From an uncultured Bacteroidales bacterium (GTDB lineage Bacteria > Bacteroidota > Bacteroidia > Bacteroidales > Bacteroidaceae), in assembly GCA_902774335.1 (NCBI GenBank), contig CACYHW010000014.1, positions 1-63,624 on the forward strand: 63,624 bases of DNA, in the 5' to 3' direction. The notes below the pieces were generated by a model. The model searched no databases and was not told the origin of the DNA. It was given only the letters and a program-made list of their open reading frames with translations. Shown piece after piece: positions 4,826 to 62,696 of this stretch (position 1 is the stretch's first letter; every line of letters starts with the position of its first letter). A program made the translations under genes and the position numbers.

Positions 4826-6160
4826 TCAAACCAGGCTTTTGGTGGTCCAGCGGCGGGATTTCCATCGGCGAATAAAAATCAGTCCGCGTATGTTTTCGTC
4901 CAGGATCAGGGCACACCATAGGGCAATAAGACCTCCATGTATGCCGATGCCCAGTACCCAGCTGCCGCCCACGGCAACGGTCCAGCACACTATAATGCCA
5001 ACCGTAACAGGATAATAGATGTCACCGGCCGCACGGAGTGAGTTCACCCCGAAGAAGTTTATGGCACGGCCCACCTCTACCATGATATCAATCCAGAGCA
5101 CTATGGTTCCCATGCGTATTATATTCTCGTTATCGGTCAGCATGGAGAATATGGTATGACCAAAACAGGCCGTGGTGAATGACAGCACAAAAGTGACGGC
5201 AACCGAAATGCGCAGTACCCGTCGGCCCAAAGCAAACGCGGCGGTGTACTTTTTCATGCCGGTAAGATGCCCTATCACGATTGCCCCACCCTGCGCCGCC
5301 GCAAGCGAGAACAGGAACACGAAGGTGGTTATGGTCTGTCCGTATGTGCGCGTGGCCAGCTCGTCGTTGCCCAGCATATTGATGAAATAGGTAACCACCA
5401 CCATCGAAAGGCTGTAAGACATCTGCTCGCCGGCCGACGGAATACCCACCTTGAACAGCTTGCCGGTCTCGGCCCACGGGAACGGGCGGAACAGCCCCTT
5501 AGGCAGGTGCCCTATATACTTGCGGTAAAGCAGATACAACAGCAGGGCCGATGATAACGCGCGGCAGATCACCGTCGATATTGCCGCACCTCTAACACCC
5601 ATTGCCGGCAGACCGAACTTACCGAATATCAGTGCGTAGTTGCCCAGAATGTTGATCACATTGACCAGGCCCGATACAAACATAGGGTAATGTGCCTTGT
5701 CAACGCTCCGCAGGGCCGCTGCAGCCGACAGCGAAACCGCCTGGAAGAATGCAAACGCACCCACAATACGCATGTACGGGAACCCCTCCACATAAAGTTC
5801 ATCACGAGCGCCCATCATATTAAGCAAGCCCGATGCCCCGCCAAACAGGAACGCGCTGAAAGCCAGCCCGATAAGAAAATTGAACAGGACCGATACGCCC
5901 ATCACCTGCAGCACACGGTTACGCTGCCCTGCCCCCACATACTGCGAGCAGAGTATGGATGTGGCCATCGATATTACCTGGAATATAATGAATACGATAT
6001 TGACCAACTGATTGACCAGGCCCACCGCAGCCACGCTCTCATCGGAATAACGGCTCAGCATGAATGTATCGGCCGCACCCAATGTCATGACAAGCAGCGT
6101 GTCAATGAAAATTGGCAATGCTAAAGAAGCGAGAAGTCTGGTAAGTTTTCCGTATCTCAT
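4826..6160 (-). CDS. MATE family efflux transporter
   Basis: The 444-residue protein has twelve hydrophobic segments in two similar halves, typical of MATE (DinF/NorM-like) Na+- or H+-coupled drug exporters. The N-terminal region includes PIFIDTLLVMTLGAADTFMLSRYSDESVAAVGLVNQ, the family start. It is a single gene between the promoter region at 6161-6242 and the small remnant at 4721-4812. The substrate cannot be predicted. Confidence 0.92.
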   Translation of the reverse strand: MRYGKLTRLLASLALPIFIDTLLVMTLGAADTFMLSRYSDESVAAVGLVNQLVNIVFIIFQVISMATSILCSQYVGAGQRNRVLQVMGVSVLFNFLIGLAFSAFLFGGASGLLNMMGARDELYVEGFPYMRIVGAFAFFQAVSLSAAAALRSVDKAHYPMFVSGLVNVINILGNYALIFGKFGLPAMGVRGAAISTVICRALSSALLLYLLYRKYIGHLPKGLFRPFPWAETGKLFKVGIPSAGEQMSYSLSMVVVTYFINMLGNDELATRTYGQTITTFVFLFSLAAAQGGAIVIGHLTGMKKYTAAFALGRRVLRISVAVTFVLSFTTACFGHTIFSMLTDNENIIRMGTIVLWIDIMVEVGRAINFFGVNSLRAAGDIYYPVTVGIIVCWTVAVGGSWVLGIGIHGGLIALWCALILDENIRGLIFIRRWKSRRWTTKSLV

Positions 6161-42293: not shown

Positions 42294-45200
42294 CATGATC
42301 GACTGCAGGAGGCTGATTGCGCGCTCCACGTCCGGAATGTCGGTGATGATGAGGCTGCGCTTGGTGCCGTCCTCGCGCAGGCGGCAGGTAAGCGGGTTCT
42401 GACCGATGAATGCCAGGATGGCGCCGAATGCCTCGCTCTCGTAATAGGGACTATCGGGGTTGGCTACAAAGAACAGGCTCATGCGGCCGGCCTTGAGGTA
42501 GATTTTCTCAATGCCAAGCTCGCGGCCCATGCGGCGCAGGGTGACCAGGCGGATAAGCTCGTCGGCCTGCTTTGGAATCTGGCCGAAACGGTCCTGCAGG
42601 CGGTCGCGGAAACGCTGGATATCGGCCTCGCGCTCCATGCTGTCCAGTTCGCGGTACAAGAGGATACGCTCGCTGCCGTCGGGCACGAATGAGTCCGGGA
42701 AACAGAGGTCCAGGTCAGTCTCAACGGTGCACTCGTCAACAAAACGGGATGCATCCATCGGAGTACTTCCAACAGCGCCCTGACCGGTACCTGTACCACT
42801 ACCCTTCTCCTTGGCCTCCTGCTCGCGGAACAGATCCTGAAACTCATCATTCTTAAGTTCGCGAACGGCCTCCTTGAGGATCTTCTGATAGGTCTCGTAG
42901 CCCAGATCGGCAATAAATCCGCTCTGCTCGGCACCCAGCAGGTTACCGGCGCCACGTATATCCAGATCCTGCAAAGCCAGCTGGATTCCGCTACCCAGAT
43001 CGCTGAAACTCTCAATGGCCTGCAGGCGGCGGCGGGACTCATCGGACAGTGATGCCAGAGGCGGCGCCAGCAGATAGCAGAACGCTTTCCTGTTGGAACG
43101 CCCTACTCGACCGCGCATCTGGTGCAAATCACTCAGACCAAAGTTCTGTGCCGAGTTTACAATGATTGTATTGGCGTTGGGTATATCGATTCCGTTCTCA
43201 ATGATAGATGTGGCTATAAGCACATCGTAGTCATAGTTGATGAATCCGGTAAGTATCTTTTCAAGTTCATCGGGATCCATCTGTCCATGACCGATAGCCA
43301 CGCGGGCATCAGGCACCTCACGCTCCACTATGGCTGCCAGATCGGGCAGTGACGATATGCGGTTGCTCACGATAAAGAGCTGGCCGTTTCGGCTCATCTC
43401 AAAGTTGACGGCCTCGCGGATGATATCGGGACTGAACACATGGAGTTCGGTCTGTATGGGATAGCGGTTGGGCGGCGGAGTCTGGATGACAGAGAGGTCA
43501 CGGGCGCCCATGAGCGAGAACTGAAGGGTGCGCGGTATGGGTGTGGCGGTCATAGTGAGCACATCCACGTTGGCACGCAGCTGCTTGAGTTTCTCTTTGA
43601 CCGATACGCCGAATTTCTGCTCCTCATCAATAATGAGCAGGCCCAGGTCCTTGAACTTGACCTGCTTGCCGATGAGTTTATGCGTACCTATTACGATATC
43701 TATCTTGCCGTTCTTGAGGTCCTCCAGAATAGCGGCCACCTGTGCGGCACTGCGGGCGCGTGACAGGTACTCCACCCTGCACGGGAACTCTTTCAATCTA
43801 TCCCTGAATGTCTGATAGTGCTGGAAAGCCAAAATGGTAGTCGGCACAAGAACCGCAACCTGCTTGTTATCGGCCACAGCCTTGAAGGCGGCACGCCCAC
43901 ATCACCGCAGATGAGGCGGTCCATGGGGCGGCTGCTCTCCATATCCTGCTTTACGTCCTGGGTGGCCTTGAGCTGGTCGGGGGTATCCTCATACATGAAA
44001 CTGGCCTCCAACTCATTCTGCAAATAAGAGTCAGGGCTGTAGGCAAAGCCCTTCTCCTCCAATCGCTTGGCGTACAGTTTGATAAGGTCACGGGCAATGT
44101 CCTTGATCTTGCCCTTGGTGCGTTCCTTAAGATTCTCCCAGGCGCCGGTGCCCAGCTTGTTTATATGCGGCTCCTCACCCTCCTTGCCCTTGTACTTGGA
44201 TACCTTGTGCAGGGCGTGGATGGATACGAACACCACGTCGTCATTCTTGTAAATGATCTTGATCTTCTCCTGATAGCCCCCACCCTGAGGCACGCGAACC
44301 AGACCGCCAAACTTACCCACGCCGTGGTCCATATGAACCACATAATCGCCAATCTGGAACTCCTGCAACTCCTTAAGCGTAAGCGCCACCTTTCCGTTGC
44401 GGGCACGCTCGCTGCGCAGGTTATACTTGTGGTAACGGTCAAATATCTGATGATCGGTAAAGAAGCAGCACTTAAGAACGCCGTCAGCAAATCCCTCATG
44501 CAGTGTCTTGCCGATGGTCTCAAACTGTATGTTCTCGCCGCGCTCAGTAAATATGTCGTGCAAGCGCTCCCCCTGCTTGGGATTATCGGTCAGAATATAA
44601 ATCCTGTAACCCTTTACAATATAATCGGTCAGCGTCTGTGACACCAGGTCAAAGTTCTTGTGGAACAGCGGCTGCGGCGTTGTATCGAATGTGATTGTGG
44701 CCGATGCCACACCGGTGGGTTTGTTGCCGAACTCCACCACGCGGAAATCGGTTGTCTTGCGCAGAAAGTCTTCGGCCGTAAGCAAGCGAGGCATCTCAAC
44801 AGGCTCGGCATTATCGGTTGCGGAGGCGTTGACCTGACGCATGCGGGCTGCCAGGCTCTCCTGATCGGCCACTTCATTACTTACTGTGGTCATGCGGTCA
44901 GCGGTCAGCAGCAAGTCCTTGACAGCCAGCACGGTATCGGCCGGCAGGAAATCCATCAGCGATACCTGTGCGCCCTCAACCTTGTCCATATCGGGCACAA
45001 CCACCACGCTGTCCTTTTTCTCGGTTGAGAGCTGCGTATCGACCGAGAACTGACGTATGCTGTCTATGTCATCACCAAAGAAATCCAGGCGGAACGGATA
45101 TTCCGATGAGAACGAGAACACATCCAGTATGCTGCCACGCAGGGCAAACTGCCCCGGCTCATAGACGTAATCCACGCGGTTGAACCCCAGTTCCAGCAGC

Positions 45201-45691
45201 AAGCTCTGCAGTTCCTCGCGGTCCAGAGTCTCGCCTACGCTCAGACGTATTGACTTGTCCTCCAGGCTGGATTTGGACACCACCTTCTCGGCAAGTGCAT
45301 CGGCCGATGTCACTATTACGAGCGTATCGGCCCCGGGCTCAACGGTGGTAAGGCGGCTCAGAACCTCGGTGCGCAGTATCTCGCTGGCATCGTCCTTCTG
45401 GCCGTACTTGGCGGCGCGGCGGAATGCCGACGGGAAATAGAGCACGTTCTGATCGCCCATGGTCTGCACCATGTCATGGTAGAAATAGGCAGCCTCCTCC
45501 TGGTCGTTAAGTATAATAAGGATGCAGGGCTTACCCCCGTTCCGGGCCACTCCACAGAACAAAAGCGGAGCCGAAGACGCACGAAGCCCTTGCAGAAAAA
45601 CGTTTCCGGTGCGTTTTCCCGCAAGTTCCTTAATCAGCGCCTTGGTCTGCGCCAACCCGCCGTAAAGGCCACTAAGATCCGCCAATGTCAT
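42288..45691 (-). pseudogene. mfd: mfd, transcription-repair coupling factor, frameshifted and lacking Walker A
   Basis: The gene spans 3404 bases, not a multiple of three. The 5' part (43793-45691, 632 codons with a foreign tail) has the UvrB-homology and RNA-polymerase-binding parts (VEPGQFALRGSILDVFSFSSEYPFRLDFFGDDID, GDYVVHMDHGVGKFGGL). The 3' part (from codon at about 43892 to 42288) has IGTHKLIG, IIDEEQKFGV, TATPIPRTLQFSL, and QMRGRVGRSNRKAFCYLL. The break is right after DRLICGDVG at about 43894: the expected FGKTEVA Walker A is missing, consistent with a 25-base deletion. The original would be about 1143 codons, a normal length. It could also be an assembly error. Function: removal of stalled RNA polymerase and repair recruitment. 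Confidence 0.85.
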
Positions 45692-53234: not shown

Positions 53235-53299
53235 GGTGACAAAGGGGACGGTTCCGTTTGGCACGCGCCAAACGGAACCGTCCCCTTTGTCACCTTTTC
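53235..53299. repeat. type B hairpin repeat, complete
   Basis: Arms AAGGTGACAAAGGGGACGG... and complement, 28 bases or more, flank CACGCG near 53264. Same core as the copy at 42230-42293. It lies between dnaX and the convergent eda gene, ends both, and gives the TGA stop of eda. Confidence 0.92.
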
Positions 53300-53961
53300 A
53301 GATTCTTCACAAATTCAATGCACTCACGGATCTTGGTCTCAATGAAACCAAAGTCACCGTTGGCGATAACGTCCTTAGGAGTAAGCTGAGAGCCCAGTCC
53401 AACGCAAGCCACACCAGCCTTGAACCAAGCCTCAAGGCTTGCAGGCTCCGGTGATACACCGCCCGAAGGCATAATCTCGGTCCAGGGGCACGGTCCCTTG
53501 ATGGCCTTTACGAACGAAGGGCCGCCAACCTCGGTTCCGGGGAAGATCTTCACAATCTCGCAGCCCAGTTCCTCGGCTGTATTGATCTCGGTCAGAGTAC
53601 CGCAGCCGGGAATCCATGCAATCTTACGGCGGTTGCAGATCTTAGCCATATCGGGGTTGAGACTGGGTGAAACGATGAATCCGGCACCCAGCTGGATATA
53701 GAGCGCTGCAGTTGCGGGATCGCTTACAGAGCCCACACCCATAATCATGTCAGGGCACTCTGTGGCGCACCATTTGTTTACCTCGGCAAAAACCTCATGC
53801 GCATAGTCGCCGCGGTTGGTGAACTCGAATACACGGGCGCCGCCTTTGTAGCAGGCCTTTACCACATTCTTGACAAGTTCCACGTCCTTGTTGTAGAACA
53901 GGGGAACTATTCCGGTGCTTACGAATGTATTGAGCACCTGTAATCTCTTGAATCGGCTCAT
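53290..53961 (-). CDS. eda: 2-keto-3-deoxy-6-phosphogluconate aldolase
   Basis: The 223-residue protein has the class I aldolase TIM barrel with VVKACYKGGARVFEFTNRGDYAHEVF, MGVGSVSDPATAALYIQLGAGFIVSPSLNPDM and IPGCGTLTEI...AEELGCEIVKIFPGTEVGGPSFVKAIKGPCPWTEIMPSGGVSPE; the Schiff-base Lys is in VKIFPGT. It splits KDPG into pyruvate and glyceraldehyde-3-phosphate. It follows kdgK by 12 bases. Its stop is provided by the repeat. Confidence 0.95.
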   Translation of the reverse strand: MSRFKRLQVLNTFVSTGIVPLFYNKDVELVKNVVKACYKGGARVFEFTNRGDYAHEVFAEVNKWCATECPDMIMGVGSVSDPATAALYIQLGAGFIVSPSLNPDMAKICNRRKIAWIPGCGTLTEINTAEELGCEIVKIFPGTEVGGPSFVKAIKGPCPWTEIMPSGGVSPEPASLEAWFKAGVACVGLGSQLTPKDVIANGDFGFIETKIRECIEFVKNLKR

Positions 53962-53973
53962 AGCGGTATATGA

Positions 53974-55005
53974 TTAGCGGGCTACGCGACCTGATGCGTC
54001 GCCACCCATAAGTTTTTCTACTTCACTTACAGTCACACGGTTGTAGTCACCGTAGATGGTGTGCTTGAGGCATGATGCTGCAACAGCAAAATCCAGAGCC
54101 TTCTGGTCATCCTCATAGACGCGCAGTCCGTAGATGAGACCGCCCATGAATGAGTCGCCACCGCCTACACGATCAACTATGTGCGTGATATCGTACTCTC
54201 TTGACTTGTAGAGTTTCTTGCCGTCGTACAGGACACCGGCCCACTTGTTGTGGTTGGCGTTGATGGAGCCGCGCAGTGTGGTGATAACCTTCTTGCAGCG
54301 CGGGAAACGGGCCATGATCTGCTTTGAAACCGACTCGTACGCATCGGCATCAACCTTACCGCCTGTTACGTCCACGCCCTCGGGCTTGATGCCAAGAGCC
54401 ATCTGTGCGTCCTCCTCGTTGCCCAGGACGATGTCGGTGCAGGCAACCAGGTCGGGCATTACCTCGCTGGCCTTCTTACCCCACTTCCACAGGTTCTTGC
54501 GGTAGTTAAGGTCGCATGATACGGTGATTCCCTTCTCGTTGCACTTCTTGACTGCCTCCAGGCATACCTTGGCTGCACCCTCGGAGATAGCGGGAGTGAT
54601 ACCGGTCCAATGGAACCAGCCTGCACCCTCCAGAACCTTGTCCCAGTCAATCATACCGGGTTCAATCTTTGCGATCGATGAGCCGGCACGGTCGTAGATG
54701 ACCTTACTGCCGCGGCTCACGGCACCTGTCTCAAGGAAATAGATGCCCAGACGGTCGCCGCCCAGAACCACATCGCTAACGTCCACGCCAAAGCCGCGGA
54801 GCTCACGCAGGCAGGCTGCTGCTATATCGTTGTCGGGAACTCTTGTCACAAATGATACGGGAAGTCCGTAGTTGGCAAGCGATACTGCCACATTGGCCTC
54901 ACCGCCACCGTAAGTTGCACTCAGCATGTTGCCCTGTCCGAAGCGCTCGTAGCCCGGAGTGGCAAGACGAAGCATAACCTCGCCGAAAGTAACTGTCTTT
55001 GTCAT
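53974..55005 (-). CDS. kdgK: 2-keto-3-deoxygluconate kinase
   Basis: From ATG 55005 the protein has 343 residues and the PfkB fold: TFGEVMLRLATPGYERFGQGNMLSATYGGGEANVAVSLANYG at the start and VDRVGGGDSFMGGLIYGL near the end (GGGD catalytic Asp). With eda it converts 2-keto-3-deoxygluconate, from hexuronate breakdown, to pyruvate and GAP. A promoter with TAACTTCG lies on the minus strand near 55030. Confidence 0.95.
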   Translation of the reverse strand: MTKTVTFGEVMLRLATPGYERFGQGNMLSATYGGGEANVAVSLANYGLPVSFVTRVPDNDIAAACLRELRGFGVDVSDVVLGGDRLGIYFLETGAVSRGSKVIYDRAGSSIAKIEPGMIDWDKVLEGAGWFHWTGITPAISEGAAKVCLEAVKKCNEKGITVSCDLNYRKNLWKWGKKASEVMPDLVACTDIVLGNEEDAQMALGIKPEGVDVTGGKVDADAYESVSKQIMARFPRCKKVITTLRGSINANHNKWAGVLYDGKKLYKSREYDITHIVDRVGGGDSFMGGLIYGLRVYEDDQKALDFAVAASCLKHTIYGDYNRVTVSEVEKLMGGDASGRVAR

Positions 55006-55091
55006 AAACAATATGTTTTCTGGCCGCGAAGTTACACAAAGCCTACGAAATGACACTTATAACCGGGCCAATAAATCAACTGCGAACAAAT

Positions 55092-55120
55092 AAAAACGGG
55101 AAGGCCTCACGGTCTCCCCG
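55092..55120 (-). terminator. intrinsic terminator after the DASS gene
   Basis: On the minus strand CGGGGAGACC-GTGA-GGCCTTCCCG (GNRA-type loop, one mismatch) is followed by TTTTTATTT. It lies 105 bases after the DASS stop. Between them a further hairpin, CTCCGTG-AGAA-CGGAG, is seen. Confidence 0.75.
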
Positions 55121-55224
55121 ATTCTATTGCAGATGTAGTCTATGGACACCTGCAAACTCCTCCGTTCTCACGGAGTCATCATCAAACAAGTAATAAAACT
55201 ATCAAACATAGAAATGTATAGTCA

Positions 55225-56748
55225 TTATATCAATCCGCTCTTACCGGCGAATACAAGCACAACATAACCCAACGTCAGTCCTATCACGCCCATGATGACA
55301 CCTACCTTGATCATGTCCTTCTGCTCGATGAAGCCTGTTGAATGTGCAAGAGCATTGGGCGGGGTCGATATGGGCAGCACCATGGAGAGCGACGAGCCCA
55401 AAGCCACGCCGATAAGCAGTGTTGATACGCCGCCGAAAGGCTCCAGGTTCTGTGCGGCCGACATTCCTGCCAGTGCCAGTATGGGGATAAGGAGGTTAGC
55501 GGTAGCCGTATGCGAAATGAAGTTGGCAAGCAGGTAGCAAATCAGACCTGAGCCGATGATCATAAGCACGGGCGGCCACTCGTTGAAGGGTATCGAAGCT
55601 ACAAGATGCTTGGCCAGACCGGAATCCTGCAGGGCAAGACCCAGGGCAAAACCACCGGCTACCATCCAAAGGATGCACCAGTTAATCTCGGCCAGATCAT
55701 ACTTGGTAATGATACGTGTCACGCAGAACACGCCCACAGGCAGCATGGCAACTACGTTTGCATCGACATGGGTCCACTTGTCGCTCATCCAGAGCAGTAC
55801 AGTAAGACCGAATGTCACGTAAACAACAATCTCCTGCCAGGGTTTGAGCACGCGTTCGGGGCTCTCCTCTATCTTGAGTTCAATCTGTTTCTGTGTAAAG
55901 GGGAACAGGAATCTGATTACAATCCACGAGATAACAAGCAGCACAAGAGTAAGCGGAAGCATGATGGTCATCCAGTCGCCGAATCCTATGTTCATGTTCA
56001 TACCTTCAGGATCGTTCAGGAACTTGATGGCAATGGCGTTAGGAGGTGTTCCGATGGGTGTAGCGATGCCTCCCAGATTGGCTCCTACCGGGATAGCCAG
56101 CGCAAGTGCCAGACGTCCCTTACCGTTGGCGGGCAGTGACTTGATGACCGGAGTAAGGAATGTGAGCATCATGGCTGCCGTTGCGGTATTGGACAGGAAC
56201 ATGGAGAATACGCCGGTTACCAGGATGAATCCCAGCAGCACGTTCTCGGATTTGGTGCCGAAAGGCTTGAGCAGCGCCTTGGCCAGTTTGATATCCAGTC
56301 CTGCCTTGGTTGCTGCAAACGCCAGCATGAATCCGCCAATAAAGAGCATGATAACCGGATCGGCAAAGCAGGCCATGATCTTGCGGCTTGACATGAGTGT
56401 TCCGAACTGCGGGTTATCGTCTATATTAAGCCTGAACAGGCTCAGGCTGTTGTCGCTGGCGGTAAACAGAAGTATTACGATGATTGCAACCGATGTCGCC
56501 CATGAGGGTATGCCCTCGGTGATCCACATGATGGTTGCGAAACAGAACAGGGCTATGACTCTCTGCTCAATCACGGTAAGATTATCGATTCCGAATGCGG
56601 TCGAAGGAAGGTTCCACACCACAAGACCGACGATGATTCCAAGAAGAACCTTGAGAACACGCCATGAGATGGGCATGACGGCTTTCTTCTGCGCCTTCTG
56701 CTTATCCTTCTGCTTAACCAAATCGGATCCTAAGAATGTTTTTTGCAT
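55225..56748 (-). CDS. DASS/SLC13 family anion transporter (dicarboxylate type)
   Basis: The 507-residue protein has 11-12 membrane segments, with SNTATAAMMLTFLTPVIKSL (first SNT motif) and ANFISHTATANLLIPILALAG (second SNT-like), PIGTPPNAIA and ISTPPNALAHSTG, the Na+/carboxylate sites of DASS proteins. The family moves succinate, citrate, other C4-dicarboxylates or sulfate with Na+. The start is Met1, followed by a basic Lys-rich tail (KQKDKQKAQKK). It is preceded by a cobalamin riboswitch (56940-57122), and followed by its own terminator, so it forms a single-gene B12-controlled unit. Confidence 0.9.
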   Translation of the reverse strand: MQKTFLGSDLVKQKDKQKAQKKAVMPISWRVLKVLLGIIVGLVVWNLPSTAFGIDNLTVIEQRVIALFCFATIMWITEGIPSWATSVAIIVILLFTASDNSLSLFRLNIDDNPQFGTLMSSRKIMACFADPVIMLFIGGFMLAFAATKAGLDIKLAKALLKPFGTKSENVLLGFILVTGVFSMFLSNTATAAMMLTFLTPVIKSLPANGKGRLALALAIPVGANLGGIATPIGTPPNAIAIKFLNDPEGMNMNIGFGDWMTIMLPLTLVLLVISWIVIRFLFPFTQKQIELKIEESPERVLKPWQEIVVYVTFGLTVLLWMSDKWTHVDANVVAMLPVGVFCVTRIITKYDLAEINWCILWMVAGGFALGLALQDSGLAKHLVASIPFNEWPPVLMIIGSGLICYLLANFISHTATANLLIPILALAGMSAAQNLEPFGGVSTLLIGVALGSSLSMVLPISTPPNALAHSTGFIEQKDMIKVGVIMGVIGLTLGYVVLVFAGKSGLI

Positions 56749-56939
56749 AGTTTGTTTATTATCAGTTAATTACTTATTGCCACAATGGTATATTAAGGTA
56801 CACAACTCACACTCTGCGCACAAAACGTCATGCACAGCCAAGCGAAGCCTGAGCTCCGCTAATCTCTGAAATTACATCAATCGTTTCAGACATTCGTCGT
56901 ACCCGCCCTATCCACGGGGCATAAGTAAAACTCTGAACT

Positions 56940-57122
56940 TGAGGCAGGTCTTCTGACTTATCTCATTGATTCAGGAACCTTCCCGGCATAATGCCAGTGG
57001 CGTTTGTTGCCGTCATGGGAGCGACGGCTCATCCTGAACCGGGATCTGAGAAATACAGCAGCGGGACTGTCCGGGAATCTCACCCGTGTTCCCTATTGAA
57101 TCTGACTTAACAGATACCTCAA
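56940..57122 (-). promoter_or_regulatory. cobalamin (B12) riboswitch
   Basis: On the minus strand the parts come in order: GGGAACACGGGTG, GATTCCCGGACAGTCCCGCTG then CTGTA (the GGGAAxxxGGTGxAAxTCC...CxGxxCCGCxxCTGTA box), GCCACTGG, GGGAAGG, and the end AGTCAGAAGACCTGCCTC, which pairs with GAGGTATCTG near 57122. All are in the correct spacing of about 183 bases. Downstream is the DASS gene at 56748, with about 190 bases of leader that could form the expression platform. Vitamin B12 forms are expected to lower expression. Confidence 0.93.
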
Positions 57123-57208
57123 TTCGGATGCAAATCTAAGCAAAAGGGATGATTTATGATGTGCGTATAAATATAATTTTTCTTATTTTTTCGCACTGTG
57201 GGCGGCTT

Positions 57209-60702: not shown

Positions 60703-60766
60703 AGGTGACAAAGGGGACGGTTCCGTTTGGCACGTGACGCAAAGGGGTCGTTTAACAATGCGTCAC
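60703..60766. repeat. composite repeat: type B half joined to a type A unit
   Basis: 60703-60733 is the first half of type B (AGGTGACAAAGGGGACGG then TTCCGTTTGGC). 60736-60764 is type A (GACGCAAAGGGGTCGTTTAAC then AATGCGTC). The two share only CGTG at the junction. The type A unit supplies the TGA stop of the lipoprotein gene ending at 60763. Confidence 0.85.
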
Positions 60767-61659
60767 TGTTTGGTGAAGACGTGACCTATATCGAACAATA
60801 CGCTGTAAGCGGTATTGTTGTTGACTATGAGCGCGAATGTTATTCCATTCTCGTGATGGTTCACAGCATTTTGAGATTGGGCTGTCTGCCACTGGATATT
60901 GAATGGGTTCTGATCATCTCCATTATTGTCAGGGCTCACAAACATCTCAGTCCGGCCTATTGATACTATGCCGTCTTTATAGGTGTATGCGCCTTTATAA
61001 AGCTTATCAAAATTGCCGTCATATAGTTCAACGTCGTCACCGCTAAAGCGTAAAGCCACTGTTATATCGTCATCTTTTTCCTTGCAGAACCATGTACCCT
61101 GAAGCAAAGACTTATCGGACGGCAGATTGGTGGCTCCTTTCTTGAAATAGATAGATGAACTCTCTATATCCTGTGATGTAGGCGTTACAGGACCATTGAA
61201 CCATTCAATACGCAAAACAGACCCTTGACAAAGAAGGCTGACACGTATGGTGTCTGTGCCTATGTTTTCATGTATGGTATCCCATCTGGCCTGCTCAATA
61301 TCATCAACAACTGTAGCAAAACGGTCTCGGGACATTGTTACATTGTCTGCGACAAGATTGCCCTCAATAATTGGACCGTATTTGCCCTCGTCACGGTACT
61401 GATAAAAAGGCTTATACTGACTTTCTTCATAAAAAGAAAGAGTGTATGAGTATTGGTAAGAGCCATCAGGGGCTATTAGAGCTGAATCTGCGCTGATTTG
61501 ATCGGGCGTAACAAGCGTAAGGTGCCATTCGCCGGCCAGATCCTGTAATGTAATGGTGGCTGACTGCTGATCATCATTACCCATTTTATCATCATTGTTA
61601 CATGATACCAGTAACGGCATGGCTATAATTGCACATGCAAAAGTCCTTTTTATACCCAT
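60763..61659 (-). CDS. lipoprotein of a tandem paralogous pair (downstream copy)
   Basis: The 298-residue protein has the lipobox AMPLLVSC and an acidic start NNDDKMGNDDQQSATITLQDLAGEWHLTLVTPDQIS, then repeated beta-strands resembling lipocalin-like or DUF-type surface domains, with FKKGATNLPSDKSLLQGTWFCKEKDDDITVALRFSGDDVELYDG in the second half. It is about 70 percent alike to the gene at 61785. The two halves may be two similar lipocalin-like modules. Stop lies in a type A repeat. Confidence 0.75.
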   Translation of the reverse strand: MGIKRTFACAIIAMPLLVSCNNDDKMGNDDQQSATITLQDLAGEWHLTLVTPDQISADSALIAPDGSYQYSYTLSFYEESQYKPFYQYRDEGKYGPIIEGNLVADNVTMSRDRFATVVDDIEQARWDTIHENIGTDTIRVSLLCQGSVLRIEWFNGPVTPTSQDIESSSIYFKKGATNLPSDKSLLQGTWFCKEKDDDITVALRFSGDDVELYDGNFDKLYKGAYTYKDGIVSIGRTEMFVSPDNNGDDQNPFNIQWQTAQSQNAVNHHENGITFALIVNNNTAYSVLFDIGHVFTKQ

Positions 61660-61784: not shown

Positions 61785-62696
61785 TTACTGTTTGTTGAAG
61801 AGGTAACCTTGATCAAAAAATACGGTGTATGCAGTCTTGTCGTTGGCTATGAACGCGAATGATATTCCTTTCTCTTTATTAAAGTTATAAACATTTAGAG
61901 ATTGGGCAGTCTGCCACTGACTGTCAAAAGGATCTGCGGCATTAATGTTATTAATTCCACCATCGATCGCAAACATTTCATTTTGGCCGATAGATACTAT
62001 GCCGTCTTTATAAGTGTATGCGCCTTTGTACAGTCTTACAAGAGCACCGTCATAAATTTCAACGTTGTCGCCGCTAAAGCGTAAAGCCATTGTTATAACG
62101 CCATCTTTATCCTTGGAGTACCATGTACCCTGGAGTAAAGACTTATCGGACGGCAGATTGGTGGCTCCTTTCTTAAAATAGAGATACACACTCTTTACAT
62201 CCTGAGATGTAGGCGTTGCCGGACCATAGAAGTATTCAAAACACAATACTGACCCTTGGCAAGGAAGGCTTATACGTGTGGTATCTGTGAAGATGTTATC
62301 AGGTATGGTATCCCATCTGGCCTGCTCAATATCATCAACAACAAAAGCATAACGTTCTCTGGCCATTGTTATGTCTTCTACTATAAGATTGCCAATAACA
62401 AAAGGACCGTATTTGCCCTCGTCACGGTACTCGTAGAATGTCTTATACTCATCTTCCTCTTTCTCATAAGGAGAATAAATGTATGAGTATTGGTAAGAAC
62501 CATCGGGGTTTATAAAATATGTTTCAGAAGTTATTTCATAGGGGGTGACAAGTGTAATGTTCCAGTCTCCTGCCAGATCCTGTAATGTAATGGTGGCAGA
62601 CTGCTGATCATCATTACCCATTTTATCATCATTGTTACATGCTACCAATAACGGCATGGCTATAATTGCACATGCAAAAGTCCTTTTTATATCCAT
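61785..62696 (-). CDS. lipoprotein of a tandem paralogous pair (upstream copy)
   Basis: The 303-residue protein has the lipobox AMPLLVAC and is closely similar to the gene at 60763 over its whole length: NNDDKMGNDDQQSATITLQDLAGDWNITLVTP, QARWDTIPDN, FKKGATNLPSDKSLLQGTWYSKDKDGVITMALRFSGDNVEIYDG. The second half repeats the theme of the first (LAGDW, LLQGTW), suggesting two lipocalin-like modules. The leader and promoter (ACTATCTTTG) are also duplicated. Function unknown. Confidence 0.75.
   Translation of the reverse strand: MDIKRTFACAIIAMPLLVACNNDDKMGNDDQQSATITLQDLAGDWNITLVTPYEITSETYFINPDGSYQYSYIYSPYEKEEDEYKTFYEYRDEGKYGPFVIGNLIVEDITMARERYAFVVDDIEQARWDTIPDNIFTDTTRISLPCQGSVLCFEYFYGPATPTSQDVKSVYLYFKKGATNLPSDKSLLQGTWYSKDKDGVITMALRFSGDNVEIYDGALVRLYKGAYTYKDGIVSIGQNEMFAIDGGINNINAADPFDSQWQTAQSLNVYNFNKEKGISFAFIANDKTAYTVFFDQGYLFNKQ

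Follow-up and report, generated by a model that had tools for sequence, protein, structure and literature searches.

Cobalamin riboswitches usually stand before genes for B12 transport, B12 synthesis or a B12-free replacement enzyme. In the contig studied here, a stretch of 63,624 nucleotides from an uncultured Bacteroidales bacterium that we refer to as the window, such an element precedes a gene for a transporter of the DASS/SLC13 family, which raises the question of what a B12-responsive RNA might accomplish at such a gene. Succinate and propionate from Bacteroidales of the gut and rumen feed microbes and host, and B12 decides between the two acids, an effect usually explained by the B12-dependent methylmalonyl-CoA mutase itself. 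An earlier note, made from the DNA sequence, had suggested that the transporter is switched on when B12 is low and then exchanges or exports succinate.

The riboswitch is complete, as the earlier note had claimed. On the minus strand, positions 56925-57136 match the Rfam family RF00174 at 88.7 bits, above its gathering threshold of 31.5, with an E-value of 1.4e-20; the match covers the model in full length (positions 1-189 of 189), and the B12 box is intact (AAGTCAGAAGACCTGCC at 56959, minus strand). The end given in the earlier note, 57122, lies 14 nt inside the aptamer as bounded by Rfam. Apart from this element, a small SRP RNA is the sole Rfam match in the window. At the 5' end of the aptamer lies the promoter motif TAnnTTTG (TAGATTTG; 57131..57138, minus strand), which we take to be the -7 box consensus of Bacteroides. 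Counted when its first position falls no more than 30 nt ahead of the aptamer and no more than 1 nt inside it, this motif is present in 25 of 26 riboswitch-DASS loci, compared to 4.8% of 5000 random places. A hairpin with GUGGAU in its loop follows the aptamer (56905..56920, minus strand) and recurs in the leaders of congeners; judged from its sequence, it is the probable P13/L13 partner of L5, with a presumed kissing role.

No B12 genes were found near the locus, in line with what had been claimed before: the window holds no second cobalamin riboswitch, and none of the ORFs in the 44-63.6 kb region appeared B12-like when inspected by eye, the families of four of these ORFs being tested. The search of the window genome (87% complete, 29 contigs) yielded one further cobalamin riboswitch, L003; the ORFs behind it carry DUF4465, TonB plug, DUF5074 and periplasmic-binding-protein domains, and this set of genes looks like one for B12 uptake. 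In a sample of 61 genomes, we counted 12, 10 and 4 cobalamin riboswitches in three members of genus g10 (G045, G072 and G093, respectively), and between one and seven per genome in the other genera. Elsewhere in the window, an Mfd-like ORF (transcription-repair coupling factor; 43793-45691) ends early for an Mfd protein, with a tail that looks unrelated by eye; perhaps this reflects a frame shift in the assembly. Two lipoprotein-like ORFs that closely resemble each other, each about 300 aa long, are arranged in tandem at 60763-61659 and 61785-62696.

The gene led by the riboswitch (55225..56748, minus strand) encodes a protein of 507 aa whose assignment to the DASS/SLC13 family is borne out by NCBIfam TIGR00785 'dass' (246.4 bits versus a cut-off of 198.6) and by matches to Pfam CitMHS and Na_sulph_symp. 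By these family matches, the first structural gene behind the riboswitch lies outside the usual B12 targets, as the earlier note had stated. The riboswitches for B12 uptake and synthesis in Bacteroidota, as described for Xylanibacter ruminicola KHP1 in passages of PMC11575231, share with that of the window the aptamer family, the 5' position and the likely OFF direction of control; their known first genes, however, encode TonB transporters and cobalamin functions. Among the best matches in the open-access literature, searched by titles and abstracts, we found no report of a DASS gene led by a cobalamin riboswitch at its 5' side. The text of PMC11575231 describes two of the four riboswitches of KHP1, and an earlier sighting of a DASS target within the tables of that paper is possible. 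Riboswitches have been tied to dicarboxylate transport in another way: according to passages of PMC9943018, the targets of antisense-acting riboswitches include Na+/H+-dicarboxylate symporters. Those elements are of mixed classes, sit 3' of their targets in antisense orientation and concern a transporter of another name, whereas the window's riboswitch is a 5' element in sense orientation.

The pairing is not confined to the window. In a family sample of 399 genomes, 151 carry a DASS homologue at E up to 1e-150, giving at least 150 DASS genes; upstream DNA was examined for 120 of the 150 that were listed, the remaining 30 lying outside the count. A cobalamin riboswitch on the same strand lies upstream of 23 of these 120 genes, compared to about 0.11 expected if riboswitches were placed on genes at random. 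The positives comprise two of eight genes in the window genus, 12 of 16 in g15, all seven in g22 and two of 13 in g30, that is, four of the 16 genera with DASS (P about 4e-6 under the same simple random model). No upstream riboswitch was found in the other 12 DASS genera, 11 of them judged by the DNA of part of their members; in genus g24, judged by coordinates, G059 and G084 each possess one riboswitch, on contigs other than those with DASS. In further sets of loci, riboswitch-led DASS genes are present at one of 18 order-level loci (L137 of G270, a member of another family) and at three of 24 named loci (L010, L020 and L022), of which L010 is the locus of G030 in the window genus. Since the search set out from the window genus, the independent finds are those in the other three genera, in G270 and at L020 and L022, which come from two named MAGs.

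Positives were called with a B12-box pattern and then checked against Rfam, which recovered a riboswitch in 20 of 20 pattern-positive loci (that of L231, on the other strand, is uncounted) and in none of 20 pattern-negative ones. The count may be low because the pattern missed L003 of the window genome, and at least five upstream stretches are shortened by contig ends (L203, L204, L208, L227 and L242). With 23 of 120 genes found against about 0.1 expected, and this in several lineages, the pairing of riboswitch and DASS goes beyond chance and is no accident; an arrangement first noticed at a single locus is thus recurrent in the family.

No riboswitch was found upstream of the other 97 DASS genes. 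Among these are the six nearest homologues of the window gene (L005-L009 and L025; 90-91% identity); a LysR-type gene lies upstream of DASS in L005 and L007, and the remaining four appear similar in their upstream DNA. On the DASS tree, with branch support by SH-aLRT alone and row L002 discounted as a truncated copy of the window protein, the riboswitch label requires eight changes, at least six of which are imposed by branches with support; some of these changes may be losses. Since close relatives manage without the aptamer, one might regard it as a relic devoid of regulatory effect. This is extremely improbable in view of the full-length match, the intact B12 box, the promoter motif that accompanies the aptamer at nearly all loci and the conservation of the riboswitch at the DASS genes of g15 and g22.

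The layout of the locus bears on whether the riboswitch acts on DASS or on its neighbors. Read along the minus strand, it comprises the promoter motif, the aptamer, the GUGGAU hairpin, a leader ORF, DASS, a hairpin block, kdgK and kdgA. The putative leader ORF (21 codons, MSET...; 56828..56893, minus strand) starts 12 nt past the P13-like hairpin and falls within the 176 nt that separate the aptamer from the ATG of DASS; this distance and the intervening ORF weigh against the reading preferred below. Behind DASS, positions 55088..55217 (minus strand) match positions 5704-5833 of locus L080 and appear to be the 3' hairpin block of an ancestral riboswitch leader; the block is closed by a hairpin followed by a T run (55092-55120, minus strand), identified by eye and by its conservation in relatives. 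The next genes encode a kdgK-like PfkB kinase (53974..55005, minus strand), assigned by family matches and found behind the riboswitch leader in congeners, and a kdgA-like KHG/KDPG aldolase (53290..53961, minus strand; NF005499 above cut-off).

The structure of the 3' block is conserved in 15 relatives, with a consensus energy of -23.35 compared to -2.28 +/- 1.76 (lowest value -6.08) in 40 column shuffles, and 12 of its 22 pairs are changed on both sides. A genus-wide search for the exact pattern of the 3' hairpin, from which the window's own copy deviates, gave 13 matches in 12 of 37 genomes and none for the reversed control. Twelve of the matches sit in riboswitch leaders; that of G030:C4 comes after DASS, which is also the order in the window. 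The remaining match is from G019, on a contig without a listed riboswitch. A terminator scan near the locus returned six sites versus 5.7 expected, and the hairpin at 55092-55120 was not among these sites. In contig C30 of G019 (L153, about 1500-1720), the leader is kept in its 3' half before a PEGA-domain ORF and kdgK, and another ORF takes the place of the aptamer. A long-range helix that would close the leader's first half, noted by eye, was not supported: it fell below all 100 shuffles in one of 17 leaders and, in several, equaled or exceeded the shuffle mean. The proposal that a single gene is controlled stands in so far as the T-run hairpin intervenes between DASS and kdgK, and is weakened by the fact that kdgK and kdgA come next on the same strand.

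The congener G026 shows how the locus may have arisen. At its locus L080, the riboswitch leader is followed by the 3' hairpin block, a PEGA-domain ORF, kdgK and kdgA. Window positions 57191-56879 match L080 5282-5595, and between this block and the matching 3' block lie 1,661 bp with DASS in the window, compared to 108 nt in L080. On this evidence, DASS would either have entered an existing leader or have departed from it in G026. The arrangement of L010 equals that of the window. The leader thus seems to predate DASS at this place and to serve other genes in congeners. In the window genus, kdgK directly follows the riboswitch leader at L077, L079 and L086, and a PEGA-domain ORF follows it at L078, L080-L085 and L128, the last of which ends before kdgK. 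At these loci, a long structured cobalamin leader precedes genes of KDG/KDPG metabolism. The same type of leader precedes an operon of an M49-like lipoprotein, DASS2 and a porin in seven congeners (L067, L068 and L070-L074; family assignments tested on L067) and stands directly before DASS2 in an eighth (L069). A homologous leader ORF is open over 89-97 codons in all eight DASS2 leaders, which have a C-terminal stretch of it in common.

These leaders of congeners would suit a riboswitch that targets the leader ORF or kdgK-kdgA and merely has DASS caught in between, as would the 108 nt that face the DASS stretch in L080 and the closeness of the leader ORF to the P13-like hairpin. Such a reading is nevertheless very unlikely: in g15, g22, g30 and G270 the riboswitch heads DASS in places without kdgK, and in the window the conserved T-run hairpin separates the two. 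We consider it highly probable that the riboswitch controls DASS, with B12 as its presumed ligand and OFF as the presumed direction.

What might the transporter carry? The earlier note had brought in the B12-dependent methylmalonyl-CoA mutase, and its genes, mutAB, are indeed present in the window genome. They were found in 13 of 13 tested genomes with a riboswitch-led DASS (as first or later gene), and in 25 of 40 tested genomes whose DASS has no riboswitch there, the other 15 being without mutAB (Fisher P 0.006 over the 53 genomes, or 0.036 with a single genome for the window genus; both values are rough since the genomes are related). In g15, the order riboswitch, DASS, accC, BCCP and mmdA-like gene was found at all seven loci examined (L115 and L264-L269) of the 12 that have the riboswitch. 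The carboxyltransferase scored 719 bits, below the mmdA cut-off of 998.8, and may, next to a biotin carboxylase, belong to an acyl-CoA carboxylase. No operon of this kind was found near two DASS genes of g15 without riboswitch (G427 and G623:C136). In g2, mutA-mutB and one of the two DASS genes are divergently arranged at four of five loci (G066, G037, G350 and G088, the last having an AspT-like gene in between); the fifth contig (G381:C19) ends too early for mutAB to appear. At all four loci oadA follows, and oadB as well in G066, G037 and G350, the stretch of G088 ending earlier. No riboswitch was found at these mutAB-divergent genes of g2. The neighborhoods with mutAB, oadAB and acyl-CoA carboxylase genes point to C4-dicarboxylates as the substrate, and most simply to succinate.

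Near the aptamer of another genome (L127, G015:C36), a mutase gene itself comes into play: the aptamer (4844-5063, minus strand) occupies the gap from the 3' end of mutB (4617, plus strand) to the following gene; it is on the strand opposite to mutB and points at it, with a hairpin and a T-rich run about 270 nt further on. Possibly, this element of a single genome specifies an RNA next to the mutase genes that is under B12 control. In the window genome, an AspT/YidE-like transporter gene is divergent from mutAB (G000:C6; L134 2047-3738 and 3986-8020). A succinate exporter of Corynebacterium belongs to this family. The AspT/YidE-like protein is a second candidate succinate carrier, which weighs against reading DASS as the exporter. 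The second DASS gene of this genome (G000:C15; L076 9673-11130 and 12349-14640) is preceded by a LysR-type gene and an M49-like ORF, and metE, for the B12-independent methionine synthase, comes next on the other strand; no riboswitch was found at this DASS gene.

Members of the DASS family transport sulfate, citrate and dicarboxylates, as the family name and passages of PMC7553777 state, and the window transporter might carry sulfate, citrate or another anion, with a link to B12 through, for instance, methionine or sulfur metabolism. The metE gene next to the second DASS operon would suit this idea. So would the sequence motifs: the window protein has the first SNT motif and SHT as the second, in place of which other riboswitch-led DASS proteins have SNT or SNS, so that a single substrate shared by all of them is not assured. 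Its first substrate loop, TPPN, is however near the SPPN of VcINDY and unlike the GPN of the citrate carrier, in a residue comparison with these two, and the neighboring mutAB, oadAB and acyl-CoA carboxylase genes of two genera speak for dicarboxylates. We hold a non-C4 substrate to be distinctly unlikely and a C4-dicarboxylate to be the likely one, with succinate suggested by the genome context.

The direction of transport is harder to read. Like VcINDY and LaINDY, the window protein is a DASS member with the first SNT motif and a PPN-type loop; it differs from both in its second motif, and its sequence speaks for a cotransporter in some respects and for an exchanger in others. Exchangers of the LaINDY type are marked by basic residues in place of Na1 and Na2. 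The His of SHT aligns with Asn378 of VcINDY at the Na2 site, a residue that, according to passages of PMC9098524, swings off this site without Na+; in the exchanger LaINDY, as passages of PMC7553777 describe, a His occupies the Na2 site. Taken together, these two observations make an exchange mode thinkable for the window protein. In a PDB search, 11 sequences were matched with VcINDY as the best one, and LaINDY was absent even at E 10. By sequence, the protein thus groups with importing Na+ cotransporters, which weighs against export or exchange.

This kinship would fit a transporter that takes up malate, fumarate, aspartate or succinate under B12 shortage. With the mutase idle, the return of CO2 and the Na+ pumped by the decarboxylase would be lost, and a ready C4 acid for fumarate respiration would pay. 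In Phascolarctobacterium faecium, passages of PMC7568257 describe a DASS gene beside the succinate pathway cluster and DASS genes that rise in co-culture with a succinate producer. DASS is tied there, too, to the genes for converting succinate to propionate. The proteins were interpreted as importers, which weighs against export, and no riboswitch is mentioned in these passages, whereas the window gene is riboswitch-led. Import of succinate, on the other hand, would serve a propionate formation that needs B12, yet OFF control would make the carrier at low B12; in addition, the window protein has a His for the Na2-site Asn, although this does not hold for all riboswitch-led DASS proteins. Release of succinate at low B12 would suit OFF control more than import does. 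We regard import at low B12 as unlikely and, given riboswitch control and a C4 substrate, favor with some reserve net export or exchange as the presumed direction.

According to this preferred reading, an OFF-type cobalamin riboswitch would control a DASS transporter for C4-dicarboxylates. With plentiful B12, the aptamer would bind B12 and DASS expression would fall; when B12 is short, the transporter would be made. The methylmalonyl-CoA mutase would then be idle, succinate would be the last product within reach, and the transporter would release it, alone or in exchange for another dicarboxylate. We assign a probability of roughly 0.45 to this entire chain, in which B12 shortage switches on an exporter or exchanger of C4-dicarboxylates such as succinate. 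The proposal of the earlier note is supported in part, by the recurrence of the pairing, by mutAB and by the gene neighborhoods. The 97 DASS genes without a riboswitch, the six nearest homologues among them, weigh against it.

Passages of PMC11575231 provide a physiological setting. OFF control by B12 is described there as the rule for most cobalamin riboswitches; strain KHP1 formed propionate solely with B12, its succinate being lower (P = 0.07), and some of the strongest changes concerned genes close to riboswitches. All four cobalamin riboswitches of the strain lie away from genes of the propionate pathway, for which the authors argue for post-translational control, so that a link of riboswitches to propionate formation is not general (PMC11575231). 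If the main reading is true, it would add a route via gene expression to the effect of B12 and name a candidate succinate carrier. For the genomes considered here, our data suggest that B12 shortage alters the movement of the very acid that B12 would let turn into propionate.

More tentatively, and with doubt prevailing, one may ask whether B12 riboswitches control genes of central carbon metabolism beyond uptake, namely the DASS exporter or exchanger, the M49-like/DASS2/porin operon and kdgK-kdgA. In the window genus, such control would run through a composite leader of aptamer, leader ORF, several hairpins and the T-run hairpin that is able to take up genes. The supply of B12 would then set the split between succinate and propionate in part through transport, and the LysR-type genes would represent an alternative wiring in close relatives.
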